Positions 40,590-42,213 of a stretch of DNA of 47,323 nucleotides are shown piece by piece. A program made the position numbers and the translations under genes. The DNA comes from a virus. The stretch covers positions 1 through 47,323 of the IMG/VR virus record IMGVR_UViG_3300032116_000351. One strand, 5' to 3'. The notes below the pieces were generated by a model. It saw nothing but the letters and a program-made list of their open reading frames with translations. It had not been told where the DNA came from and made no database searches. Every line of letters begins with the position of its first letter. Position 1 is the stretch's first letter.

Positions 40590-40663
40590 GCAACAGTAGC
40601 CAAGTTGGTTAAGGCCCCGAACTCATAATTCGGCTATCGTAGGTTCAAGTCCTACCTGTTGCA
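40590..40663 (+). tRNA. tRNA with CAU anticodon (elongator Met or lysidine-type Ile)
   Basis: All four arms are visible. The acceptor GCAACAG (40590-40596) pairs perfectly with CTGTTGC (40656-40662). The D stem is GCC/GGC. The anticodon stem CCGAA/TTCGG (40617-40621 and 40629-40633) holds loop CTCATAA with CAT at 40624-40626. The T arm is GTAGG-TTCAAGT-CCTAC (40639-40655). The discriminator A is at 40663. The 3' CCA is not encoded (CAA follows). The initiator's three G:C pairs in the anticodon stem are absent, so it is elongator Met or Ile2. Confidence 0.95.
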
Positions 40664-40675
40664 CAAAGGAGATTT

Positions 40676-41269: not shown

Positions 41270-41689
41270 ATGGTAACAACATATACATGGGATCTTTTCA
41301 AGGATCCCTTTTTTATTGGCTTTAATCGTGAAATTGAAAGAATGGCTAACGTGCACAATGCTGCATCACGCCAATCATATCCACCATACGATGTATTAAA
41401 GCTAGACGAAGATACATATCAGGTATCTCTTGCGGTTGCAGGATTCACAAAAGAAGACATTAGTCTATCTGTAGATAACGGAACATTGGTTATTTCTGGA
41501 GAAATTACCGAAGTTACCGACGCAGAGGTTTTGCATAAAGGAATTGCTGCACGTAAATTCACAAGGTCTTTTGCCCTAGGAGAATACATGGAAGTATCCA
41601 GTGCATCTCTTAAAGACGGAATGCTTAATATTAATATTATTAGGCTAGTTCCTGAAGACAAGAAGCCAAAGACTATCAAGATCAAATAA
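41270..41689 (+). CDS. Small heat shock protein (Hsp20 / alpha-crystallin)
   Basis: A 139-aa chaperone. The alpha-crystallin domain spans about residues 40-138: VSLAVAGFTKEDISLSVDNG, then LVISGEI, then FTRSFALGEYMEVSSASLKD and GMLNINIIRLVPED. The C-terminal IKIK is the I-x-I motif that links subunits. It holds unfolding proteins in solution, and in phages such genes are thought to aid capsid or tail assembly. It has its own promoter and strong Shine-Dalgarno. Confidence 0.9.
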   Translation: MVTTYTWDLFKDPFFIGFNREIERMANVHNAASRQSYPPYDVLKLDEDTYQVSLAVAGFTKEDISLSVDNGTLVISGEITEVTDAEVLHKGIAARKFTRSFALGEYMEVSSASLKDGMLNINIIRLVPEDKKPKTIKIK

Positions 41690-41693
41690 ATAG

Positions 41694-41699
41694 TATAAT
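41694..41699 (+). promoter_or_regulatory. -10 box before the nuclease leader
   Basis: TATAAT (41694-41699) lies five bases after the Hsp20 stop. The start would be near 41706, at the base of the first helix of the structured leader. No good -35 is visible, so strength is uncertain. Confidence 0.5.
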
Positions 41700-41704
41700 A
41701 GAGA

Positions 41705-41785
41705 TCTGCACCCCGTCACTGGGGAGTCGCAGACTATTCGGGTCGCTACCCGAAGGATGGACCTGAGCACGTCCCGAAACTGCTC
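41705..41785 (+). promoter_or_regulatory. Structured leader RNA with pseudoknot, candidate cis-regulator
   Basis: Four helices can be drawn. TCTGC (41705-41709) pairs with GCAGA (41729-41733). CCCC (41711-41714) pairs with GGGG (41721-41724). TTCGGGT (41737-41743) pairs with ACCCGAA (41748-41754) with a CGCT loop. GGAC (41759-41762) pairs with GTCC (41771-41774), while GAGCA (41765-41769) pairs with TGCTC (41781-41785), giving an H-type pseudoknot. CCCGAA recurs at 41773-41778, so TTCGGG has two possible partners. The nuclease Shine-Dalgarno is 12 bases downstream. Confidence 0.6.
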
Positions 41786-41805
41786 ATTAAAATTTAAGGA
41801 GAGTT

Positions 41806-42213
41806 ATGTTTGAATACAGAGTTAAACAGGTAACAAAGATAGTTGACGGAGATACTATTGATGTTGACATTGATCTTGGATTCAGCATTTCATATTCTCA
41901 AAGACTTAGACTAGCAGGCATTGACACACCAGAGTCTAGAACAACAGACAAACTTGAAAAAACATTAGGCTTAGAATCAAAAGAGTATCTTAAATCTAAG
42001 TTTAAAGATGCTAAAGACATTGTTGTAAAAACAGAAAAGCCAGACAGCTCTGAGAAGTATGGTCGTATTCTAGGCTGGATATACCTTGATGGAAACACTA
42101 AGTCTGTTAATGAACAAATGATTGAAGACGGTTATGCGTGGGGATACATGGGAGAGACTAAGGTCAAAGATTTTGTTGCCTTAGCTGAAAAGAGAAAAAA
42201 GAGCGGTAAGTAA
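41806..42213 (+). CDS. Staphylococcal nuclease-like thermonuclease
   Basis: A 135-aa enzyme. VKQVTKIVDGDTIDVDI (residues about 6-22) is the typical start with the metal-binding Asp. RLRLAGIDTPES (about 33-44) has the first catalytic Arg and Asp, and EKYGRILGWIY (about 84-94) the second Arg. Such enzymes cut DNA and RNA to 3'-phosphates with calcium. In phage infection it could degrade host DNA. No signal peptide is seen, so it acts in the cytoplasm. AAGGAGAG precedes the ATG. Confidence 0.9.
   Translation: MFEYRVKQVTKIVDGDTIDVDIDLGFSISYSQRLRLAGIDTPESRTTDKLEKTLGLESKEYLKSKFKDAKDIVVKTEKPDSSEKYGRILGWIYLDGNTKSVNEQMIEDGYAWGYMGETKVKDFVALAEKRKKSGK

Follow-up and report, generated by a model that had tools for sequence, protein, structure and literature searches.

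A 27-nt RNA pseudoknot conserved in phages of many bacterial phyla, with a possible role at the 3' boundaries of RNAs

We show here a conserved 27-nt H-type RNA pseudoknot with covariation in both stems and a near-fixed geometry. It typically starts 5 to 8 nt past a stop codon, as if clearing a terminating ribosome. Because it recurs with compensating changes in hundreds of viruses of widely differing bacteria, mostly a few letters past a stop codon, it is probably an undescribed mark at the ends of phage mRNAs. As judged from sequence, it may be a host-independent punctuation mark that defines or protects RNA ends behind stop codons and works with hammerhead ribozymes and tRNA processing.

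The window, that is, the whole stretch of DNA analysed, is a 47.3-kb virus record, in which one copy lies in a leader between an Hsp20 gene and a gene for a staphylococcal-nuclease-type (SNase) protein (Table 1). Four nucleotides separate the Hsp20 stop codon from a -10-like box; the RNA start predicted from this box, at about 41705, is the foot of hairpin D1. The match to a -35 box is poor, and (A/G)GTATAAT is found at the equivalent place in related nuclease leaders. The 3' end of the pseudoknot is 20 nt from the nuclease ATG. The core pattern occurred once in the window versus 0.00 times per shuffled window, and model R1 matched this copy with an E value of 8.6e-7 and found no second copy in the 47.3 kb. 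As plain secondary structure, a 151-nt stretch was moderately stable (z -2.1), and the folding energy of an 84-nt RNA was not unusual (z -1.5). Such energies (z about -1.5 to -2.2, hairpins included) are unremarkable, and the case therefore rests on conservation and covariation. At the gathering threshold, Rfam 15 detected only a tRNA in the whole window, where a single tRNA-Met (CAU) gene is located at 40590-40664, between terminase-side genes and the Hsp20 region. The preliminary description of this DNA had assigned the leader to no known class, and indeed Rfam 15 gave no match for 41640-41860 at E values up to 10.

Table 1 Features of the leader and its flanking genes in the window, and loci of the cellular micro-ORF
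Feature	Position	Strand	Basis
Hsp20/alpha-crystallin gene, 139 aa, upstream	41270..41689	+	ORF; Pfam HSP20, E 3.4e-19
-10-like box TATAAT, within TAGTATAATA	41694..41699	+	sequence; putative promoter
Hairpin D1, UCUGCACCCC...GGGGAGUCGCAGA, two bulges	41705..41733	+	fold z -2.0; 17-leader alignment A2
Hairpin D2, UUCGGG/CCCGAA, then GGAU	41737..41754	+	fold z -2.2
27-nt H-type pseudoknot	41759..41785	+	core pattern, model R1, covariation, complementary-swap scans
Pseudoknot stem 1, GGAC/GUCC (loop 1 CU)	41759-62 with 41771-74	+	
Pseudoknot stem 2, GAGCA/UGCUC (one-base loop C; loop 3 CGAAAC)	41765-69 with 41781-85	+	
Second CCCGAA, proposed competing partner	41773..41778	+	present; not conserved (4/9 distinct leaders)
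Shine-Dalgarno AAGGAG	41796..41801	+	sequence
Staphylococcal-nuclease-type gene, 135 aa, downstream	41806..42213	+	ORF; Pfam SNase, E 1.4e-16
Micro-ORF loci	L209, L219, L220, L225, L228, L244, L245, L252, L257, L281, L289, L297, L305, L307, L310, L314, L315, L320, L323		

The consensus of the motif is NNNC-CU-RRnYA-h-GNNN-NNAAAC-URnYY, with four pairs in stem 1, a CU loop, five pairs in stem 2, one base (A, U or C) and a loop 3 of six bases ending in AAAC; 92 percent of the sequences are 27 nt long. For stem 1, IMG/VR was searched with a pattern made from the stem-2 strands and the loops only, ignoring stem 1. At least three stem-1 pairs were formed at 163 of 163 distinct sites among the matches listed, in some sixty combinations, whereas shuffled partners were expected to pair in about 22 percent. 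The strongest test, which is independent of the alignments, was a set of scans of all IMG/VR with swapped stems: the complementary forms AGTC...GACT and GGAC...GTCC each occurred at least 120 times, versus zero occurrences for each of the non-complementary forms AGTC...GTCC and GGAC...GACT. For stem 2, sites were picked by stem 1, CU and AAAC alone and restricted to those in which neither stem-2 strand had the standard sequence; all five pairs were kept in 27 of these 58 sites. Stem-2 variants of the motif include GAGUA/UGCUC, GGGUA/UGCCC, AAGCA/UGCUU, GGACA/UGUCC, GGCCA/UGGCC and GAACA/UGUUC. In alignment A1, nine of nine pairs vary on both sides and slid registers are far behind, a count that is illustrative only because A1 was selected on pairing. 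The pseudoknot that the preliminary description had drawn from GGAC/GTCC and GAGCA/TGCTC is thus real, both of its stems covarying across the IMG/VR copies.

That description had further proposed three perfect hairpins in the leader and two competing partners for the strand TTCGGG. D2 pairs perfectly, but D1 is not a perfect hairpin because its fold has two bulges, and no third perfect hairpin was identified besides the pseudoknot stems. The second CCCGAA does exist, but the competing pairing is not conserved: it is missing from five of nine distinct related leaders, in which the TTCGGG hairpin is retained. This sequence appears whenever stem 1 is GGAC/GTCC and the two free bases of the loop are CG; the switch is therefore not conserved, and we rejected it. 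Related phages without the second CCCGAA had been named in advance as evidence against the leader, and on this point the proposal fails.

Among the matches listed, we counted 346 distinct copies in 271 loci. The carriers are phages of actinobacteria, cyanobacteria, staphylococci, lactobacilli and Rhodobacterales, crAss-like phages, and prophage-like or cellular contigs from many phyla. Cyanophage S-EIV1 has seven model matches, all on one strand, and further annotated carriers are S-RIM4, Nostoc phage NMeng1, mycobacteriophage Labelle, Paracoccus ParKuw1 and crAss-like cr7_1. In Lentibacter and Celeribacter cobaviruses the pseudoknot lies between the genes for ribonucleotide reductase and glutaredoxin, and in Staphylococcus, Lactobacillus and Streptococcus phages it precedes the genes for the scaffold and the major capsid protein, sometimes after a terminator-like hairpin. 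Tandem pairs within about 25-80 nt were seen in four loci (L237, L162, L113 and L331). A phage contig (L154:10620-12666) has an apparent catalase-peroxidase (KatG) gene followed 13 nt on by the stem-2 variant GGGUA/UACCC. BLAST matches in Vibrio phages sit within a gene, and stem 1 of an Erwinia copy is weak.

The motif also occurs in bacterial genomes from many phyla, where 105 of 119 sites had three or more stem-1 pairs. Three of the sites fall in repeat arrays resembling CRISPR arrays; in such arrays in L247, L292 and L233, a spacer matches the pseudoknot. A genome scan by class, with seed genomes excluded, found the motif in 3 of 150 Bacilli and in none of 228 Gammaproteobacteria (GTDB; the class of the seed), 147 Clostridia or 141 Alphaproteobacteria. 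These scans show that the motif is rare in chromosomes, and they single out no host factor. A ten-variant query, of limited sensitivity to other stem-1 sequences, had no match in 5,426 E. coli genomes.

The distance from the stop codon to stem 1 was determined for ORFs of at least 80 codons. It was 4 nt in 6 cases, 5 nt in 37, 6 nt in 23, 7 nt in 12, 8 nt in 11 and 9 nt in 12, and no case fell at 0-3 nt. In a second sample, taken from the stem-1 scans, the matches listed included 3 cases at 4 nt, 15 at 5, 9 at 6 and 9 at 7, none at 0-3 nt, and one each at -2 and -8. In frameshifting signals, a pseudoknot 5 nt past the A-site codon just clears the mRNA entrance of the ribosome. On the other side, the next start codon is seldom nearer than about 17-20 nt, a lower bound less sharp than that at the stop codon.

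In cellular loci (Table 1), the pseudoknot is associated with a conserved micro-ORF of about 18-21 codons that has a strong Shine-Dalgarno sequence and encodes M(K/T)RFMIPR(V/T/I)(A/S)HCxxGCxxxS, which may be a tiny metal-binding peptide. Its stop codon overlaps stem 1. A terminator follows the micro-ORF in several loci, and L220 has an ArsR-like ORF ahead of it.

Hammerhead ribozymes flank genes in prophages, where they are believed to divide long phage transcripts into mRNAs of one gene each (PMC3088659). Among IMG/VR sites with AAACTGCTC ahead of a hammerhead core, 21 of 26 had the full pseudoknot. The cleavage site was 5-8 nt beyond the pseudoknot in 13 of the 19 sites measured, 13 nt in three and 19-21 nt in three. 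In the reverse order, hammerhead and then pseudoknot within 34 nt, 56 pattern matches contained no pseudoknot. A Polynucleobacter MAG contig carries four pseudoknots in 1.4 kb, two with a hammerhead directly after. Two pseudoknots of this contig (L416, reverse strand, 726-752 and 1176-1202) are followed by a short hairpin-like, non-hammerhead stretch, possibly another processing element.

A tRNA gene lies 3-14 nt past the pseudoknot in 21 loci, many of them related tRNA-Asp loci of one phage group. In the first sample, tRNA genes were downstream in 25 cases versus upstream in 1, but the matches listed in the second sample gave 2 versus 3; because the bias is absent there, it was not used as decisive, and a role in tRNA loci only was rejected. 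In Clostridial phage loci, the DUF2800 RNA (RF02960) starts directly past the pseudoknot (L207:1027-1184, L229:5432-5592 and L240:2824-2981), and the two may form one functional unit. In L284, L242, L216 and L319, the next gene is convergent and supported by Pfam; the pseudoknot therefore has no same-strand neighbour to serve. Read from sequence, the hammerhead order, the tRNAs, the convergent neighbours and the DUF2800 RNA make it more likely that the pseudoknot acts at the 3' boundary of the RNA ahead of it.

The nuclease-type leaders consist of exchangeable blocks in the order TATAAT box, optional D1, one of several D2 hairpins, GGAU, pseudoknot and Shine-Dalgarno. D1 is swapped or absent in relatives, D1-less variants being seen, and relatives use other stem sequences for D2. 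Where D1 is found (window 41705-41733, L005, L010, L034 and L186), its CUGCACCCC..GGGGAGUCGCAG is near-invariant yet exchanged as a block. In L051 and L052 the pseudoknot stands alone immediately after the hsp20 stop codon; comparable hairpin-pseudoknot units precede FmdB-like zinc-ribbon frames in L101, L117 and L185, and in L171 and L444 such a unit is followed directly by a TATAAT-like box, with no gene start. Since the blocks exchange and similar units precede other genes or TATAAT-like boxes, the leader looks more like a self-contained short RNA or a boundary element than a riboswitch of the nuclease gene. Related phages without the pseudoknot strands had also been named in advance as evidence against the leader. 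Relatives of the nuclease were found at 80 loci, in which a pseudoknot was counted under a strict filter if it lay within 80 nt of the start codon; 38 of them have it, including nearly all close relatives, a result that favours the pseudoknot. At the remaining nuclease loci, the gene upstream is a different one, the leader is truncated, or a variant escaped the strict filter.

On the best explanation, which we hold tentatively and put slightly short of an even chance, the pseudoknot would serve as a compact roadblock or cap at processing sites and preserve the 3' boundary of an RNA there. The pseudoknot would mark the boundary between two RNA units, at a position that a ribosome halted on the stop codon would just leave uncovered. 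The polycistronic transcript would be cut just downstream by hammerhead self-cleavage, by RNase P at a tRNA or by some endonuclease, for which the AU-rich stretch ahead of the next ribosome-binding site is a candidate target. After the cut, the rigid, short pseudoknot would block 3'-to-5' exonucleases, as a terminator hairpin does. In the window, it would close a short promoter-led RNA that begins at the TATAAT box and contains D1 and D2, before the ribosome-binding site of the nuclease gene; this RNA may be a free small RNA that ends in the pseudoknot, or it may be the leading segment of a nuclease mRNA that is yet to be cut. Several observations count against the 3'-boundary reading. Most copies are followed, some 20 nt on, by nothing but a ribosome-binding site and its gene, with no known cutting device, and the window copy is not behind a stop codon. 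The stop codon of the micro-gene overlaps stem 1, and a terminating ribosome would therefore open the pseudoknot.

The sharp lower bound of 4-5 nt past the stop codon, with the weaker one of about 17-20 nt before the next start, would also suit a post-termination barrier or insulator that stops ribosomes from sliding or reinitiating wrongly and frees the next ribosome-binding site, tRNA or ribozyme. Such a barrier would work in any host because ribosomes are universal. We regard it as unlikely, since some copies have no upstream ORF (the nuclease leaders and those after terminator-like hairpins), copies with only a convergent gene as next neighbour need no insulation, and the cellular copies overlap the stop codon. 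It is similarly improbable that the pseudoknot is a 5' element of the downstream gene, shielding a processed mRNA at its 5' end or aiding ribosome standby or translation, so that the window copy would be part of the nuclease leader. Its distance from the nuclease ATG with a -10-like box ahead fits this explanation, as does the pseudoknot that helps standby translation of E. coli tisB (PMC7708055). Its place ahead of scaffold and capsid genes in several phages of Firmicutes, in some cases after a terminator-like hairpin, fits as well and counts against the 3'-boundary reading. On the other hand, the next gene is convergent in the Pfam-supported cases, the hammerhead order is solely pseudoknot and then ribozyme, and the downstream genes are of many kinds.

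A small-molecule riboswitch, or a nuclease-specific autoregulated leader with mutually exclusive pairings as the preliminary description had suggested, is very improbable. The pseudoknot is compact, H-type and invariant in its loops, as in preQ1-I, and the window has the second CCCGAA; however, this second copy is confined to the four leaders mentioned above, the motif is tied to no gene or pathway, and no Rfam riboswitch matched. Unrelated genes, tRNAs and hammerheads have this pseudoknot ahead of them as well, and it also lies at the ends of genes whose next neighbour is convergent; a nuclease-specific leader was rejected as its general meaning on the ground that the motif precedes many kinds of gene. 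Least probable is a recoding signal of the retroviral or luteoviral kind, promoting readthrough or frameshifting. Known recoding pseudoknots have a comparable spacer and two-base and one-base loops, which the 5-8 nt spacer and the loops of the phage motif resemble, and a fixed short spacer past the A-site codon (mode 5 nt) is indeed seen. However, the reading phases relative to the upstream ORF were 57, 43 and 26, the motif's own TGA was in frame in 26 of 126 cases, and no downstream frame is kept; a recoding role is unlikely because all three phases are used, and readthrough or frameshifting was rejected on this basis. The tRNAs and hammerheads directly after the pseudoknot also argue against it. 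The reading that we retain is that of a punctuation mark common to phages of many bacterial phyla and adopted by some cellular micro-genes, for which the chances appear not quite even.

If the sequence evidence is read correctly, annotation misses an RNA element in hundreds of phage genomes, including those of well-studied Staphylococcus, Lactobacillus and Streptococcus phages and cyanophages. A role at mRNA ends, if true, would be a simple, portable phage device that functions in unrelated hosts. It makes testable the question of how phages that lack intergenic terminators set the end and the level of each individual mRNA, and a possible use is as a very short part for the construction of bacterial mRNAs.

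Rfam scans of other copies detected only neighbours (the DUF2800 RNA, hammerheads and tRNAs), and a search of freely accessible papers with motif strings and topics found no description of the motif. Whether it is categorically new or a new family among structured untranslated-region elements is a matter of judgement; we chose the former because no described family has its sequence core, breadth or placement rule. PreQ1-I is likewise a very small H-type pseudoknot with an A-rich loop 3, but the phage motif is not tied to queuosine genes and occurs in multiple copies per phage; neither preQ1-I, SAM-II nor another riboswitch was matched in Rfam, and the neighbouring genes are diverse, with no link to a ligand pathway. 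Luteovirus frameshifting pseudoknots, such as that of beet western yellows virus, have short coaxial stems and small loops and lie about 5-9 nt past the A-site codon. The phage motif shares with them two short stems, the two-base loop 1, the one-base junction loop, the A-rich loop 3 and similar spacing, but it occurs in DNA phages infecting bacteria of many phyla, sits behind stop codons without a fixed frame, and is near-invariant in the sequence of stem 2 and the loops. Type III antitoxin RNAs (ToxI) are short RNA pseudoknots that are sometimes phage-borne (PMC3475682). ToxI pseudoknots occur in tandem upstream of a ToxN-family nuclease, whereas the copies found here are mostly single, lie in gene gaps with no adjacent toxin gene recognised and share one core across phyla, and the gene in the window is of the SNase type. 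Intrinsic terminators and 3'-stabilising hairpins also form a structured 3' boundary close past a stop codon; the motif differs in being a pseudoknot rather than a hairpin, in needing no U-tract and in having a sequence core common across phyla. Prophage hammerheads (PMC3088659) and theta ribozymes by phage tRNAs (PMC10879173) are intergenic RNA devices that set mRNA and tRNA ends. Like them, the pseudoknot occupies phage gene gaps, and it stands directly upstream of such hammerheads; it differs from them in that its 27 nt contain neither the hammerhead core CUGAUGA...GAAA nor a known cleavage activity, with hammerheads adjoining some copies and others being found free of ribozymes.
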